Source of the DNA: Rickettsiales bacterium
Lineage (GTDB): Bacteria; Pseudomonadota; Alphaproteobacteria; Rickettsiales; SXRF01
Reading direction: 5' to 3'
NCBI GenBank assembly: GCA_005792635.1
Contig: SXRF01000108.1
Coordinates: 1-35,115 of the forward strand
DNA length: 35,115 bases
Shown: piece after piece, positions 1,298 to 30,337 of the stretch
Numbering within the stretch: position 1 is the first letter of the stretch
Layout: every line of letters starts with the position of its first letter
Made by a program: the position numbers and the translations under genes
Notes under the pieces: model-generated
Database searches by the model: none
What the model was told of the DNA's origin: nothing
The model's input: the letters and a program-made list of their open reading frames with translations, nothing else

Positions 1298-1754
1298 TTT
1301 TACTACGCATTTTACTACGCGCATTGTTTCAAAGGAGGAATCGGAAATCCTCACCAAAATTCACGAAGAATGTTTCCCGCGCTATTGGAATCGGCAGGCT
1401 TTTACCGATTTTTTCTCTGTGGCTGGCACTTTCGCCAAGCTGGTGGAGCAGGGGGGTGAGGCGGTCGCTATGATGGTGTACCGCGTTTCGTTTGAGCAGG
1501 CGGAGATTATAACCCTCGGCGTGCGCCCGAAATTTCGCGGCGTTGGGATTGCCGATAAATTACTCGCGGATGCGCTTTCTCACTGCGCGAGCCTTGGCGC
1601 GGAAAAAATGTTTCTGGAGGTGGAGGTGGGTAACGAACCCGCCATCAAACTATACGAAAAAGCAGGCTTCAAACATATCAGCCGCCGCAAACTCTATTAC
1701 CAACAGCTGGACGGCACACTCACCGACGCGCTGGTGATGAGCAGGAAATTATAG
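1290..1754 (+). CDS. GNAT-family N-acetyltransferase, RimI-like
   Basis: This 154-residue protein has the GNAT fold. Motif A, the acetyl-CoA pyrophosphate loop, reads TLGVRPKFRGVGIADKLLAD (R/Q-x-x-G-x-G/A pattern). It is followed by GAEKMFLEVEVGNEPAIKLY and EKAGFKHISRRKLYY, the RimI-type C-terminal half with a closing ALVMSRKL. RimI acetylates the N-terminal alanine of ribosomal protein S18, and relatives modify other proteins. The FLEVEVGNEPAIKLYEKAGF pattern favours RimI over small-molecule acetyltransferases, but substrate cannot be assigned from sequence alone. The ATG at 1290 overlaps the TPR gene by 8 bases; an earlier start at 1254 would read an arginine-rich artefact. Confidence 0.85.
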   Translation: MPDFTTHFTTRIVSKEESEILTKIHEECFPRYWNRQAFTDFFSVAGTFAKLVEQGGEAVAMMVYRVSFEQAEIITLGVRPKFRGVGIADKLLADALSHCASLGAEKMFLEVEVGNEPAIKLYEKAGFKHISRRKLYYQQLDGTLTDALVMSRKL

Positions 1755-1778
1755 ATACCCGCACAGGGTGGGTATGAC
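1753..1778. repeat. Half copy of the GTCAT palindromic repeat family
   Basis: AGATACCCGCAC followed by AGGGTGGGTATGAC has the layout of the right half of the larger doublets: GGATACC, a short hairpin, then GGTATGAC. The right end of the copy at 17695-17781 is the closest match seen. It directly follows the acetyltransferase stop codon. Confidence 0.55.
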
Positions 1779-1793
1779 GGAGTACGAAATTAC

Positions 1794-4544: not shown

Positions 4545-5486
4545 TTATTGAAACCTAATCATCAATGCACAGTTTATGCCATTTCCACCATTTTGTGATA
4601 TTGAGTATTGTTGAGTTGCACCATTAACATTTCCATTGTCAAAGCAAGTAGTTGCAGAGGCAGTGGTTGCTGTGGTGTAAGGGGTAGTATTGTCATACAA
4701 AATTGTTGTTCCAGATAAATACACCCATGTGCTACCACTAACTGTATTTATATATTTTGCTGTAATAATTCCAGATTGAGGAAAGCCATCATCAATTTTG
4801 CTATCAATTGAATACGCTTGTTGCACAGTAATACCATTATTAGCTGATGGTTGACTTACACCAACAACTGCGTTCATAGCCGAAATTATATAATAATTAT
4901 ATGGCGATGTAAGATCATTAGAAGAGCGCCAAGCTAATGGCATTGGAGCCCCACTAACTACAGATATATAATTCCCATTACCTATCTTCGCTCTTGGGAA
5001 ATACAATGGAATTTGTGATGAAGTTAAAGATAATGTTGCGGTGGCGGTTGCAGTATTAAAGCCTCCATCAATCAAACCAGCAGTGCTTAAATCAACCCAA
5101 AACATGGTAGTCTCACCATTTACAAACAAAGATGAGTTACCACCAAAATCATATCCTTCTAATAGACCGCTACCATCACCTTGCCCTATCTGCGTTCCTC
5201 TTGCCTTAAAACCAAAACCACTAGCATTTGGCTCGGCAATATCTCCGGGAATGGCGTTGTATTTTACTCTAAAGGTATTGACTGCTGAATTATATTTTTC
5301 AACTTGTTGAATTTGACTGCGGATTTCCGCAGCTTTTATCAAATCCTGCCCTACGAGAACTCCGCCAACAAGTAAGCCTATGATAACTAAAACAATTGAT
5401 AGTTCAATCAGCGTAAATCCAGCTTTTAAAATGTGCGAATTGGTACGCATTTCTTTCGCTTGCACAGATTTTATATCATTTCCCAT
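4545..5486 (-). CDS. Type IV pilin / pseudopilin-like prepilin
   Basis: This 313-residue protein has a 23-residue positively charged leader ending KAG, then FTLIELSIVLVIIGLLVGGV. That is the prepilin peptidase cleavage site (G|F) with Glu at mature position 5 and the hydrophobic N-terminal helix. The mature part is long (about 290) and rich in Gly, Ser, Thr and Asn, with SIDSKIDDGFPQSG near the C-terminus, a motif shared with the second prepilin at 10363. The ATG at 5484-5486 was chosen because AGGTGG lies 8 bases upstream, inside the end of fabH; an in-frame start 33 bases earlier overlaps fabH and lacks a site. It probably forms or primes a pilus or type II-like pseudopilus; no assembly genes are in the window. 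Confidence 0.88.
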   Translation of the reverse strand: MGNDIKSVQAKEMRTNSHILKAGFTLIELSIVLVIIGLLVGGVLVGQDLIKAAEIRSQIQQVEKYNSAVNTFRVKYNAIPGDIAEPNASGFGFKARGTQIGQGDGSGLLEGYDFGGNSSLFVNGETTMFWVDLSTAGLIDGGFNTATATATLSLTSSQIPLYFPRAKIGNGNYISVVSGAPMPLAWRSSNDLTSPYNYYIISAMNAVVGVSQPSANNGITVQQAYSIDSKIDDGFPQSGIITAKYINTVSGSTWVYLSGTTILYDNTTPYTTATTASATTCFDNGNVNGATQQYSISQNGGNGINCALMIRFQ

Positions 5487-5491
5487 ATTAA

Positions 5492-6451
5492 TTACCACCT
5501 GATTATCGTGCAGCCCCAAGTTAGCCCTGCGCCGAGGGCTGGGCAGGCGATTATTTGCCCTTGCTTTATGCGCCCGTCATGTGCTGCTTCGTGCAGTGCC
5601 AGCGGGATAGAGGCGGCGGAGGTATTGGCGCATTTCGCAACATTAGAGATAATCCTTGCGTCCTCAATTCCCAGTTTCTGCGCGACAGCGGCGAGAATTC
5701 GCATATTCGCCTGATGCGGAACTAGCCAGTCAATTGCGTCTTTATGAAGGCTCAAATTCTGCAAACCTTCTTCCACCGCGGCGGGCATTTTGGCGACGGC
5801 GTGGCGGAAAACTTCCTTGCCCGCCATGGCAAATAGCCCAGCGGTTTTGGTGGTGGAAACGCCGCCTGTGGTGTGAATTAAATCTGAAAATTTGCCGTCG
5901 GAATGAATTTTGGAGAATAATATCCCGCGCTGGCTGTTTTCCTGCGCGTCTAGCAAAACTGCCGCTGCGCCGTCACCAAATAAGATACAGGTGGCGCGGT
6001 CGTCCCAGTCCAAAATCCGCGAATAAGTCTCTGCGCCGATAACCAGCACCCGCTTTGCCGCGCCCGAGATGATAAAATTATTGGCAACGCTCATGGCATA
6101 CACAAAGCCGCTGCACGCCGCGTTGATGTCAAATGCTGCGCCGCTGGTGATGCCCAGTGCGTGCTGAATTTTCGCGGCGGTGGCGGGCATAGTGTCATCA
6201 GGTGTGGCGGTGGCGAGGATTACAAGGTCAATGCTATCCGCCGCTACGCCCGCATTCAAAATTGCCTGTTTTCCCGCTGCAATGCCAAGGTTGGAGGTAT
6301 ATTCGCCGTCTGCGGCGATGTGTCGCTGTTCAATGCCTGTGCGCTCCATTATCCATTCATGGCTGGTTTCCAAATGCGCTGGTAAATCAGCGTTATGGAG
6401 GATTTTTTCTGGTAGATACGCCCCTGTTCCGATGATAACTGCGCGAAGCAT
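5492..6451 (-). CDS. fabH: Beta-ketoacyl-ACP synthase III
   Basis: This 319-residue enzyme condenses acetyl-CoA with malonyl-ACP to start fatty-acid synthesis. The catalytic triad is visible: Cys113 in NAACSGF, His246 in VPHQANMRI, Asn276 in ANTSAASIPLAL. The N-terminal GTGAYLPEKIL and WIMERTGIEQRH are FabH signatures, and the C-terminus GAGLTWGCTIIRW matches the family end. It starts 3 bases after plsX ends, so rpmF-plsX-fabH form a leftward operon, the classical alphaproteobacterial arrangement. The usual next genes (ihfA, a MerR regulator) are replaced here by a prepilin gene. Confidence 0.97.
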   Translation of the reverse strand: MLRAVIIGTGAYLPEKILHNADLPAHLETSHEWIMERTGIEQRHIAADGEYTSNLGIAAGKQAILNAGVAADSIDLVILATATPDDTMPATAAKIQHALGITSGAAFDINAACSGFVYAMSVANNFIISGAAKRVLVIGAETYSRILDWDDRATCILFGDGAAAVLLDAQENSQRGILFSKIHSDGKFSDLIHTTGGVSTTKTAGLFAMAGKEVFRHAVAKMPAAVEEGLQNLSLHKDAIDWLVPHQANMRILAAVAQKLGIEDARIISNVAKCANTSAASIPLALHEAAHDGRIKQGQIIACPALGAGLTWGCTIIRW

Positions 6452-10233: not shown

Positions 10234-10362
10234 TGTGTGTATTAAAAATAAATTGTGTATTGCGGTCTTTAAGCATAAACATTTGATTTAGGTATAACAA
10301 CCTGATTGTTGCTAGTATAACCACAAACTAGTCTATGGAAAAGCCAAAATGGAGACAATAAA

Positions 10363-11241
10363 ATGGCAAAGCAAGCAAGCAAGCAAAAAAATGTGGGTTT
10401 GTGTCTGGTTGTCAAGCGCAAAGTTAAAGTAATCCTCGGTCGTCACCCCGCACTCGTTGCGGGGTCTGTAAACACAAACACCGACAAAATTTACAGCCAC
10501 AGACCCCGTTATAAAAACGGGGTGACAAGCAATGTGGGCTTTACCCTTGTTGAACTCTCCATCGTCCTTGTAATTATCGGGCTTATAGCTGGTGGAATTT
10601 TGCTGGGGAAAGATTTGATCACCGCTGCTGAAATTCGTTACTCTGTTTCACAGATGCAGCAAATGGAAATATCATACAATACTTTCAAAATAAAATATAA
10701 TTGCGTAGTTGGGGATTGTCAAAATGCCACTGACTTTTTTGGAATAGATTTTTGTCCACTCGTTACCAATCAATATAGCGTAAGTTGCAATCATTGTAAT
10801 GGTGATGGTGATGGATTAGTAAAAAATACTAATGGAGATGGAACTCAAAATTGTGAATATCTGAATACACCATCTTTTTTTGTAGCAGCAAACCTTTTAC
10901 CACAAGGAATGAAAGTTAATTCAACAACTATTAGTGGCGGGTATAATGGTTCTCTTTTGAATATCATGAATGATGATTGGGGCTCATATATGTATGGTGG
11001 AACTCGCACTCAATATAATGGAATTATCTCATATAAACCAAATAATTACGCTGGAGCAAGTGCATCAAGTTCGCTAGATGCACAAGCAATTGATAGTAAA
11101 ATAGACGATGGGATAGGTAATAAAGGTAAATTCTGGGGGCTTACAACCATTGGTGTTGCAGGTGCGGGTGTTTGCCAAACAAGTGGCGTATATAATACAA
11201 GTGCTAATGGAGAATGTAGATTTGTATATTACTTTAAGTAA
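10363..11241 (+). CDS. Second prepilin, with a repeat-encoded extended leader
   Basis: This 292-residue protein has the prepilin site at G59|F60 followed by TLVELSIVLVIIGLIAGGIL, and a mature part of about 233 residues. It shares AAEIR, NTFKIKYN, a GD motif and AIDSKIDDG with the prepilin at 4545. The mature domain is unusually cysteine-rich (NCVVGDCQ, DFCPL, SCNHCNGDGDG), which could give disulfides or metal binding. The leader is 59 residues, far longer than the usual 6-30. Its second half (from GRHPALVAGSV to NGVTS) is encoded by a palindromic repeat (10442-10526). The ATG is preceded by GGAGA. A later start would lose the charged leader, so the long form is likely, but translation start is not proven. 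Confidence 0.85.
   Translation: MAKQASKQKNVGLCLVVKRKVKVILGRHPALVAGSVNTNTDKIYSHRPRYKNGVTSNVGFTLVELSIVLVIIGLIAGGILLGKDLITAAEIRYSVSQMQQMEISYNTFKIKYNCVVGDCQNATDFFGIDFCPLVTNQYSVSCNHCNGDGDGLVKNTNGDGTQNCEYLNTPSFFVAANLLPQGMKVNSTTISGGYNGSLLNIMNDDWGSYMYGGTRTQYNGIISYKPNNYAGASASSSLDAQAIDSKIDDGIGNKGKFWGLTTIGVAGAGVCQTSGVYNTSANGECRFVYYFK
10442..10526. repeat. GTCAT-type palindromic doublet repeat inside a prepilin gene, copy 2
   Basis: This 85-bp element begins GTCACCCCGCAC and ends ACGGGGTGAC, with terminal inverted repeat GTCACCCC/GGGGTGAC. The left half folds CCCCGCA...TGCGGGG, the right half CCCCGTT...AACGGGG, and the inner arms are GTCTGTAAA and TTTACAG...AGAC. It lies wholly inside an open reading frame, encoding part of a prepilin leader. 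Confidence 0.9.
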
Positions 11242-11268
11242 TGATAAATAGCTTGCTATTTTGCTCTG

Positions 11269-11296
11269 TCATGCCAGCGCAGGCTGGCATCCACGC
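11269..11296. repeat. Half copy of the GTCAT palindromic repeat family
   Basis: GTCATGCCAGCG followed by CAGGCTGGCATCCACG is a left half only. Hairpin TGCCAGC-GCAG-GCTGGCA spans 11272-11289. It lies 27 bases after the prepilin stop, before the convergent brnA gene. Confidence 0.75.
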
Positions 11297-11315: not shown

Positions 11316-11633
11316 TTAGCGGTATTTATTAACAATTTCCACGGGAGAATGCGTTGCCAGCCAATCTTTCAATGCAGCGTTTATGCGTGTTTGCCAGCCT
11401 CGCCCAGAAGCTTTAAAAGCCAAAAGAACATCAGAATCAAAACGAATAGCTGTAAAAATTTTTGGATTTTCAGAAGTCGGGCGACCGCGCATAGGCTTTA
11501 ATTGGGCAAATTCACTGCCTGATAGCTCGTAAGTGTCGGCATCATTTTTTATGCCAGATTTTATGAGTTTTTCTTCTTCCGCAGTTGGTAAAATAAGCTT
11601 TCGCCCAGAGGCTGTTTTAATTGTTTTTGGCAT
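11316..11633 (-). CDS. brnA: BrnA-family antitoxin
   Basis: This 105-residue protein has the BrnA C-terminal ribbon-helix-helix: GRPTSENPKIFTAIRFDSDV, then LLAFKASGRGWQTRINAALK, matching the family pattern RP...PK..V..R.D.DVL..FK..G.GWQTRIN. BrnA neutralises the BrnT RNase and represses the operon. The gene overlaps brnT by 17 bases on the same strand, the usual toxin-first order. It ends convergent to the second prepilin. Confidence 0.92.
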   Translation of the reverse strand: MPKTIKTASGRKLILPTAEEEKLIKSGIKNDADTYELSGSEFAQLKPMRGRPTSENPKIFTAIRFDSDVLLAFKASGRGWQTRINAALKDWLATHSPVEIVNKYR

Positions 11634-11886
11634 ATGTTTTTACCTCTCTTACATTAGCTTTTCGCAAACTTATAACGCGCCTCTGGTTGCCTCTATCCAC
11701 AAAAACCACGCAATATAACCTTGATTCCATTATGGCAAACCCGATAAAGCGTTCCTCTCCATAATTATGGCGTTCATCGCGCTTTGCTGATAATGTATCC
11801 CATTCTAATTCCTTGGCAAATCCTAGTGAAAAACCATGTTTTTCTTTGTTTGTATTGCTCTTGATTGAATCGTAGGTGATTTCCAT
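11617..11886 (-). CDS. brnT: BrnT-family ribonuclease toxin
   Basis: This 89-residue protein matches BrnT, a RelE-fold RNase. Visible features are ITYDSIKSNTNKEKHGFSLG (the D..K...N..KHG.SF pattern), DTLSAKRDERHNYGEERFIG (D.R...GE.R), a central VVFVDRGNQRRVISLRKA (R.IS.RKA) and the tail EVKTYAKNN. The substrate would be mRNA, arresting translation under stress. The promoter upstream is strong (see 11907-11935). The pair sits in a 70-bp AT-rich slot next to ffh, consistent with acquisition. Confidence 0.92.
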   Translation of the reverse strand: MEITYDSIKSNTNKEKHGFSLGFAKELEWDTLSAKRDERHNYGEERFIGFAIMESRLYCVVFVDRGNQRRVISLRKANVREVKTYAKNN

Positions 11887-15434: not shown

Positions 15435-15475
15435 CTCTTAGCATCGATTTGTAGGGCAAACCGCACAATTTTTTC

Positions 15476-15558
15476 GTCATCCCCGCGTAGGCGGGGATCT
15501 CTATATCCTCTACGCTGGCGCAAGACTAAAAAGAGATTCCTGCCTACGCAGGAATGAC
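15476..15558. repeat. GTCAT palindromic doublet repeat, copy 3
   Basis: This 83-bp element begins GTCATCCCCGCGTAGGCGGG and ends CCTGCCTACGCAGGAATGAC. Each half folds as a hairpin (CCCCGC...GCGGGG and CCTGC...GCAGG). It lies 41 bases after the sensor kinase stop and could also affect transcript ends. GATCTCT and AGAGATT are the inner arms. Confidence 0.88.
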
Positions 15559-15670
15559 GATTTCGAAGGCTATTCTGGTAGCTAAATAAATATACGCTGC
15601 AACGCAGCAATCATTCCGCTTTCGTAATAAATATGTGGATTTAGAGTGGGTTTTCTGCTATAGTCAAAGC

Positions 15671-17655: not shown

Positions 17656-17694
17656 CTTAGTAACGAGATGTACGACTTTTTTTGTCATTTATTT

Positions 17695-17781
17695 GTCATT
17701 CCGCCGAAGGGCGGAATCCATGCCTTTCAACAAGCTAATCGCAATTTGCTTGGCATGGATACCAGCCTGCGCTGGTATGAC
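17695..17781. repeat. GTCAT palindromic doublet repeat, copy 4
   Basis: This 87-bp element begins GTCATTCCGCCG and ends GCGCTGGTATGAC. The left hairpin is TTCCGCC...GGCGGAA, the right ACCAGC...GCTGGT, and the inner arms ATCCATGCC / GGCATGGAT also pair, so the whole element can fold as one long hairpin. In one frame it encodes the widespread FRRRAESMPF...WIPACAGMT type peptide, typical of this class of repeat. Confidence 0.9.
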
Positions 17782-17957
17782 AGCACGAAAAGTAAGTGGC
17801 TTACAAAAAAGTAGTTCAGCCTTCGCAGATGAGGCATTTTGCCACTGCCAGAGCATGTTTTTTAATGCTATGGTCGCTGTATGGATTGGGAAATTGGGAA
17901 TTTTAGTAAAGATAGGCTAATAAAGTGGCGGTGTAGAACAAGGTTTTTTCTGCTGCA
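17782..17957. other. Intergenic stretch before the hydrolase promoter
   Basis: Between the permease (ends 17655) and the hydrolase (starts 18022) lie 366 bases without a convincing gene. They hold the palindromic repeat, this unassigned stretch with only short frames, and then the Fur-box promoter. I see no other structure here. Confidence 0.6.
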
Positions 17958-29484: not shown

Positions 29485-30337
29485 ACCGAAATACATGCGC
29501 TACGTTGCGGAAGATTACCTGGCGGACACCGAGCCGCTCGACCTCGCAGAGCAAGGCGCGTATTGGCGCTTGGTATCCAAGATGTGGCTTGCCGGTGGAC
29601 GCATCCGCGCTGACGACTCGCTGATCGCCCGTATGCTCGGCGTGCATACCAATCGATGGATGAAGCTCAAGCCCGCTGTTGTCGCCTATTTTATAGAGAA
29701 AGAAGGGTTTTACACGCAAAAACGCCTCAAAAAAGAGTACAAATTTTCGGTCAGTCAAATGGCTGTGGATAACTCTGATGATGAAGAGAATACCCCATCA
29801 GATACCAGGGGGGTAACACCCACCCAAACCCCACCCGTAACTAAGGGAGTAACCCACCCAGTAACCCCACCGGTAACTAAGGGGGTTACCCCACCCGTTA
29901 CCCCAGGAGTATCTTCCGACAACACATTGAAAAATAGCGATTCCAATTCTTCGCCCACCGTACTCAAAGAAGATAATCCTTCGCGCACGCGCACGTTATC
30001 TCAATCCAATTCCATTTCAAAAGATAAAAGATCTGAGATTGCATCGGCGGAAACGTGGAAAAAACTCAGTTTTGAGTGCGATTTTTCGCCCGAAGAAGCC
30101 ACAGAATTCAGCAACGAGCTGGTGGATGCGTTCACCGATCTCAAACTGCAGCCACCGCAGGATTTTGGCGTGATTCACGGCTGGATGCAGCGTGGCGCAC
30201 ACCCGTTCCGAGACATCCTCCCCACCGTGAGATCAATGTTAAATCGCAACGTTGAAGGTCACCACGAACCACCGAAGAGTTGGAAATATTTTGCAAATGA
30301 ACTGTTCAAAAAAATCAAAGGAGGTGGCAATGGGTAG
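29477..30337 (+). CDS. DUF1376 replication-type protein with internal tandem repeats
   Basis: This 286-residue protein has a DUF1376 domain at about 1-90 (YMRYVAEDYLADTEPLDLAE, then QGAYWRLVSKMWLAGGRIRA DDSLIARMLG). DUF1376 proteins occur where phage replication initiators are expected. Residues 112-145 consist of 12-residue tandem repeats TPPVTKGVTHPV / TPPVTKGVTPPV. A charged C-terminal domain (FECDFSPEEATEFSNELVDA) follows. GAGG lies before the ATG at 29477; the gene overlaps both neighbours by 8 bases. The internal repeat may be a replication origin, as in lambda O. Confidence 0.8.
   Translation: MPKPKYMRYVAEDYLADTEPLDLAEQGAYWRLVSKMWLAGGRIRADDSLIARMLGVHTNRWMKLKPAVVAYFIEKEGFYTQKRLKKEYKFSVSQMAVDNSDDEENTPSDTRGVTPTQTPPVTKGVTHPVTPPVTKGVTPPVTPGVSSDNTLKNSDSNSSPTVLKEDNPSRTRTLSQSNSISKDKRSEIASAETWKKLSFECDFSPEEATEFSNELVDAFTDLKLQPPQDFGVIHGWMQRGAHPFRDILPTVRSMLNRNVEGHHEPPKSWKYFANELFKKIKGGGNG
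29828..29905. repeat. 36-bp tandem repeats inside the DUF1376 gene
   Basis: Two near-identical units begin at 29828 and 29864 (ACCCCACC, then GTAACTAAGGG, then a GTAACC or GTTACC word), with a third partial unit from 29892. Related GTAAC words also occur before the first unit, at 29813. The period of 36 bp equals 12 codons. An AT-richer stretch follows from about 29911. Confidence 0.8.

Follow-up and report, generated by a model that had tools for sequence, protein, structure and literature searches.

The window, by which we mean the whole stretch of 35,115 nucleotides analysed here, carries at positions 10363-11241 (+) an open reading frame (ORF) for a prepilin of 292 residues (labelled C91 among its paralogues), in which 59 residues, ending in a glycine, come before FTLVELS. 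The G|F...E5 motif and the hydrophobic helix are both present, and the ORF scored 20.4 bits with TIGR02532, the prepilin cleavage/methylation model, over its cut-off of 16.3, and 17.7 bits with Pfam N_methyl, under its cut-off of 21.2. If the cut falls after G59 the leader (10363..10539, +) would be lost, leaving a mature pilin-like part of 233 residues that starts FTLVELSIVLVIIGLIAGG (10540..11238, +).

Three ATG codons on the forward strand stand at the beginning of this gene. The first (10335..10337; offset -205 from the cleavage codon, frame 1) is in a non-pilin frame and hits a stop, as does the second (10349..10351; offset -191, frame 2), which is in the third frame, while the third (10363..10365) is the in-frame start of the 292-residue ORF, with GGAGA at 10351-10355 (+) as its putative Shine-Dalgarno-like site. 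Directly 3' of this start codon TRF reported a simple-sequence repeat with a frame-shifting unit, (AAGC)4.5 at 10369..10386 (+), which is followed by a basic leader segment ending ...LCLVVKRKVKVIL (10387..10440, +) that is alike in about ten paralogues.

Leader residues 27-55 are encoded by a heterodimer of CGTC-tagged REP units. The left unit (10441..10468, +) has the tag CGTC and the right unit (10500..10527, -) the tag TGTC, each with an 8-bp stem, a 5-nt loop and the 3-nt tail CTG, and a spacer of 31 nt (10469..10499) separates the two. The tags, at 10441 and 10527, point outward, and both stems are perfect; the first stem pair is A-T, and at the second position the window copy has C-G where others, among them that of the paralogue C29, have T-A. 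When the window was searched with the arm pattern, allowing up to three mismatches, only the two arms of the doublet were found (0.01 expected), and the region folded as single-stranded DNA with a z-score of -4.8, better than 200 of 200 shuffles. A general repeat search of the window did not list the doublet, and one pair that it reported joined two CGTC-type hairpins (11259 and 17738). A sequence-only reading of this DNA had described the 59-residue leader before FTLVELS, a palindromic doublet at 10442-10526 and a frame open across it; the leader is confirmed by the ORF and its TIGR02532 score, the doublet is real by its stems, arm matches and fold, and the ORF translation runs through it without a stop.

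Six further CGTC-tagged hairpins lie in the window (1779-, 11267+, 15475+/15559-, 17694+/17782-), making eight of the CGTC design in the whole window; 40 dinucleotide shuffles contained 0.1 on average and never more than 1. Two are single: a CGTC-tagged one at 1752..1779 (-), with a 5-nt loop and one stem mismatch, and an intergenic CGTC-type one at 11267..11293 (+), with a TGTC tag and a 4-nt loop. The others form two intergenic dimers with 4-nt loops, a CGTC REP dimer at 15475..15559 and a CGTC-type dimer with TGTC tags at 17694..17782. Five of the six have 4-nt loops and stems unlike those of the leader doublet, and a BLAST search with the leader palindrome (97 nt, E <= 10) matched none of them. 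Three intergenic copies had been put in one family with the doublet, which is right for the superfamily design that they have in common and goes too far for the subtypes, since loops and stems differ and BLAST finds no match.

Elsewhere in the window, genes for a BrnA antitoxin and a BrnT toxin (Pfam; 11316-11886, -) immediately follow the prepilin on the opposite strand, with overlapping ORFs. A second prepilin (4545-5519, -) scores over the TIGR02532 cut-off; counted from a TTG start its leader has 34 residues, and its frame overlaps ORF 5492-6451, read as fabH-like. A 36-nt tandem repeat (29809-29905, +) lies inside an ORF at the window's right end, a part that reads as prophage.

Dispersal of the palindrome through the genome

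The genome is a 1.95 Mb draft in 128 contigs, in which several prepilin starts fall at contig ends. The window copy had 53 BLAST matches in it at E <= 10, with close copies on other contigs, and a covariance model (R1) built from 12 full copies had 127 at E <= 0.1. With strands merged, these represent at least 67 distinct places of the dimer, a lower bound since scoring covered 150 of the 1053 first-look candidates. Under stricter filters the model matched 22 of 55 genomes, including this one, at E <= 0.001. Dimer cores are most often 85 nt long (27 of the 58 measured), and the copies in coaE and fmt both have 85-nt cores that differ by one base, which marks their movement as recent. Sequence comparison thus supports a family that is dispersed and recently mobile. 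A REP-associated transposase was sought with a single model, PF01797, whose one match (C69:1069-1425) has no copy of the window subtype adjoining it; unrelated hairpins lie beside it, with one palindrome of another CGTC-like subtype just downstream. We take this match to be IS200-like.

Copies inside genes are common. By a list of our own choosing, drawn up from ORF size together with NCBIfam or Pfam matches or the prepilin motif, 25 of the 67 places are in frame within recognised ORFs, five of them prepilin leaders and 20 others, of which 17 were matched by NCBIfam at E <= 1e-8 (some under the curated cut-offs) and three by Pfam. The carriers include coaE, fmt, addA (with two separate copies), addB, hscA, hemN and bioA, cobQ, cobU, cobG and cobN (C109:7433, where the copy is degenerate), mtaB, and genes for a BepA-like M48 peptidase, an ABC substrate-binding protein, a DsbD-like protein, a porin, a Tad/VWA protein, an acyltransferase and a P-type ATPase (on C6), the last with no start codon visible upstream of the palindrome. 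Three genic copies are thus in addA and addB; the two in-frame palindromes of addA are of different subtype, and addB, also on contig C16, has a shortened one.

In two of these enzymes the palindrome-encoded peptide could be placed against known structures and relatives. The alignment of CoaE with PDB 2if2 falls into two blocks (4-58 and 92-220) that flank the palindrome peptide, and the alignments of Fmt with its six closest chains stop at residues 251-259, approximately where the palindrome begins. Neither protein has the peptide in any of the three other genomes of the genus. The comparison with relatives covered these two and DsbD, whose N-termini were too divergent for a judgement. For the porin and the DsbD-like, substrate-binding and M48 proteins, we read the palindrome as lying just before the hydrophobic part of an apparent signal peptide.

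Are coding copies a distinct class? A frame open in at least one orientation was found in 19 of 21 genic copies and in 23 of 37 others (p = 0.03), so that an open frame separates the genic copies weakly and is not special to them. Core length was rejected as a mark of coding copies (class 1 mod 3 in 16 of 21 genic and 20 of 37 other copies, p = 0.16). Both tests cover 58 of the 67 places, the nine in which the pattern found no core (four genic, five other) having been dropped.

Probable translation through the palindrome

By motif, and among the stretches fetched, the genome has about 36 prepilin genes. It also has two Peptidase_A24 matches, both over the cut-off. About ten of the paralogues share the leader form MAKQSKAKQK..VLWLVVKRKVKV. 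A CGTC hairpin lies inside the leader ORF in 7 of the 36 prepilins, and in none of 41 prepilins from four relatives, so a palindrome in the leader is not peculiar to the window gene. Palindrome-free leaders are of 32 (C110:4631), 29 (C93) and 30 (C89:775) residues. The expectation had been a short leader in orthologues without the repeat, with the palindrome as a clean insertion, and the comparison with these paralogues agrees in that palindrome-free leaders are shorter (29-32 residues) and the palindrome adds 27-30 residues; it also indicates that the leader was long already beforehand.

An indication that these leaders are coding comes from their phase. We entered 11 paralogues and dropped C89a, in which the shared anchor was not found. 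In all ten usable paralogues, whose leaders are related and hence not independent, the distance from the anchor to the cleavage codon falls in one residue class mod 3, although the stretches have eight distinct lengths between 35 and 158 nt, and these same stretches contain no stop in the pilin frame and between one and four in each other frame. Moreover C88a, a palindrome carrier, and C52, in which the rule used for leader hairpins finds none, lack any ATG, GTG or TTG in the pilin frame beyond the anchor. The kept phase, the stop-free frame and the two genes without a later start argue that translation runs through the palindrome and that the leader, which looks coding, is read across it.

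These results bear directly on the alternative that translation begins downstream of the repeat, at the GTG in the pilin frame at the palindrome's right end (10522..10524, +), which would give the short leader VTSNVG and leave the palindrome as a 5'-untranslated REP, acting on the mRNA or inert, and the long ORF as an effect of annotation. C91, C29, C88b, C89b, C48 and C125 all have a GTG or ATG in the pilin frame where the right unit has its outer tag, and the leaders that would result are of ordinary length, 6-26 residues being usual for type IV prepilins (PMC4471445); Di Nocera et al. also caution that REPs which seem to lie inside genes near the N-terminus may in many cases be extragenic (PMC3733652). 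Such a start would, however, leave unexplained why the whole segment keeps its phase and is free of stops in ten of ten paralogues while both other frames are stopped, and it is unavailable to C88a and C52; the frame-shifting tracts, too, are located at the upstream start, and GGAGA lies 5' of the ATG at 10363. We therefore consider a downstream start unlikely. The phase and stop test largely, though not fully, counters this possibility, which the sequence-only reading had itself put forward as grounds for giving up its proposal.

With translation from the upstream start, the palindrome-encoded peptide lies wholly upstream of the cleavage site and would be removed with the rest of the leader. 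That a prepilin peptidase could take these residues away, as had been suggested, is consistent with their position and with the two peptidase A24 genes of the genome.

Slippage tracts and a proposed switchable prepilin repertoire

The (AAGC) tract of the window gene, which the sequence-only reading had not mentioned, has many counterparts. Repeats of at least three copies with a frame-shifting unit are present in 13 of 34 prepilin leaders, and repeats with units of 3, 6, 9 or 12 nt in none of the 34. The units are AAGC, GCAA, GCAAA, AG, GAGGAAGC, AACTTCCC, AACTTTCC and GCGACCA, and their sizes 2, 4, 5, 7 and 8 nt; units of 10 and 11 nt were sought too. Some leaders at contig ends were examined over less than 220 nt. 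Tract density is 1.91 per kb in the leaders and 0.045 per kb in the background (five tracts in 110.8 kb of surrounding sequence plus the window), and since one of these five belongs to the C48 prepilin, which the length filter missed, the comparison is biased against a reading as phase variation. A pattern of three AAGC units with at most one base between them matched 25 times in the genome and never when reversed as a control; the 25 matches are 15 places, of which six are known prepilin starts and six lie elsewhere, two (C71 and C76) are cut by a contig end, and one (C25) follows an ATG with no prepilin beyond. In the prepilins fetched from relatives, recognised by our own motif pattern, a frame-shifting repeat is rare, being found in 2 of 14 leaders of genome G001, 0 of 5 of G002 and 0 of 18 of G003; the stretches obtained covered 14 of 19 matches in G001 and numbered 7 for 15 matches in G002, 17 for 25 in G003 and two in G005.

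At 11 leaders the start region is visible, and in seven of them an ATG before the tract is in the pilin frame (ON), while the other four have no ATG, GTG or TTG before the tract in that frame (OFF); these are paralogues and not alleles of one locus, and C89b, whose tract is interrupted, is counted among them. Two further observations concern tracts. In the relative G001 a prepilin (G001:C6:757800-759400, L122) has (AG)14 before the cleavage site in an open frame without an ATG, possibly an OFF state. In the draft genome itself, contigs C58, C84, C125, C88, C71 and C76 start or end in or near prepilin-like tracts or leaders, as if tract length or copy number had broken the assembly.

A frame-shifting repeat that opens the leader, as in many paralogues, points to phase variation, and many prepilin genes of this genome are probably phase variable. 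Pilus phase variation is known in Neisseria. We propose, with a probability of about 0.72, that the window gene is one of a set of phase-variable prepilins, in whose removable leaders slippage tracts and mobile palindromes accumulate. The insertion, the coding constraint and the tract enrichment are computed; slippage, the cutting of the leader and tolerance of the palindrome are what we infer. Slippage in the (AAGC) tract would set the frame and so turn translation of the prepilin on or off, with the upstream ATGs in the other two frames as alternative entries. The ON frame would yield a prepilin with a long basic leader, which the prepilin peptidase would cut after the glycine and discard whole. 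Residues encoded by repeat and palindrome would then never reach the pilus, and a leader that is discarded would readily accept DNA of either kind. A tract of 4.5 tetranucleotide copies is short, and its slippage may be rare. As for the palindrome, it is most likely a mobile insertion that the gene tolerates, as its place in a removable leader would allow, rather than an adaptation.

Could the gene and its leader instead be drifting debris, an unexpressed duplicated pilin struck by a REP and a short repeat? A stop follows the cleavage site by 38 codons in C48 and by 113 in C1, and four of 11 starts are OFF, as such decay would have it. Yet the frame of C91 is intact over 292 codons, the phase is preserved in ten of ten usable paralogues, and 13 leaders with frame-shifting repeats against none with in-frame units is a bias not expected of debris, which makes this account very improbable.

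A different role for the same DNA would be as a recombination site: palindrome and shared leader could mediate exchange between pilin genes, giving donor-recipient antigenic variation of the kind that pilE and pilS provide in Neisseria. There are indeed about ten paralogues with closely similar leader DNA, whose proteins are mostly 43-53% identical to the window prepilin over leader and body (73% for the first 95 residues of C48), and in C88b (L080:1216-1404, -) a newer palindrome of the HPALVAGS type seems to sit atop an older remnant of the C29 type. Duplication, however, explains similar leaders too, the palindromes are unlike one another between paralogues, and the family is dispersed in many genes other than those for pilins; we regard recombination of this kind as quite improbable.

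The proposal of a switchable repertoire with permissive leaders can be widened, more tentatively, to the genome as a whole. Cleavable leaders might serve as a genomic sandbox, the preferred homes both of slippage tracts, which would maintain a large phase-variable pilin repertoire, and of CGTC palindromes, whose coding-compatible 85-nt form would spread among leaders and into enzymes. The prepilin peptidase, and perhaps signal peptidase too, would discard the leaders, and an upstream tract could bring a frame-shifting insertion back into phase, so that the two features would favour each other. We hold this wider scheme to be possible, if somewhat doubtful.

Comparison with known systems

By its tag, stem, loop, tail and dimer form the leader palindrome is a member of the CGTC-tagged REP superfamily. 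Di Nocera et al. (2013, PMC3733652) describe elements that likewise have a CGTC or TGTC tag, an 8-bp stem, a 5-nt loop and a 3-nt tail, form heterodimers and occur in frame within genes; their common tail is CCA, whereas that of the leader palindrome is CTG. The superfamily as a whole also admits CCTC as the unpaired tag, stems of 8-9 bp and loops of 4-5 nt, its many dispersed copies are mostly dimers, and A/T pairs are expected at the first two stem positions, of which the window copy has the first. According to the same source they are found mostly in alphaproteobacteria and have no dedicated transposase, and their intragenic copies include some in DNA-repair genes, with which the copies in addA and addB accord. 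None of the words pilin, pilus, leader, secreted and signal peptide occurs in the main text of that paper; in the present genome the palindrome has entered prepilin leaders and what look like signal peptides more than once.

The palindrome had also been likened to the Rickettsia palindromic elements (RPEs). Both are palindromic and dispersed, and both make in-frame additions of about 30 residues to conserved proteins. Since RPE-4 and RPE-6 of R. conorii are placed among the CGTC REPs (PMC3733652), the comparison is apt at the level of the superfamily. The likeness is one of design; the RPEs first described are 105-146 bp long (PMC2229807). The comparison thus stands for dispersal, recent movement and in-frame copies in many genes, and it holds at superfamily level only. 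A guanylate kinase that carries an RPE is active, with a changed affinity (PMC2229807). In the lineage studied here, near-identical copies in unrelated enzymes together with insert-free relatives make the movement and the tolerance of protein-coding palindromes testable in an uncultured alphaproteobacterium.

The tracts resemble the contingency loci of H. influenzae, in which tetranucleotide tracts, GCAA being among the units, lie in the 5' part of ORFs and in one case directly after the start codon (PMC2651432). The window prepilin has its tetranucleotide tract in the same part of the ORF, as seen in the sequence of one assembly. Unlike the H. influenzae tracts, those described here lie in a removable leader and in many paralogous prepilins of one genome, with units of 2, 4, 5, 7 and 8 nt together. 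The prepilin itself has the G|F junction, the E5 and the hydrophobic stretch of the class III signal peptides of type IV prepilins, and differs from them in its leader of 59 residues, against 6-26 (PMC4471445).

Among the matches listed from the open-licence literature we found no case of a pilin leader with a palindrome or a slippage tract. Intragenic CGTC REPs and RPEs are known already, and so is phase variation driven by repeats; what seems to be new is their combination in pilin leaders, which points to a phase-variable pilin repertoire whose switch would be sited in the part of the protein that is discarded.
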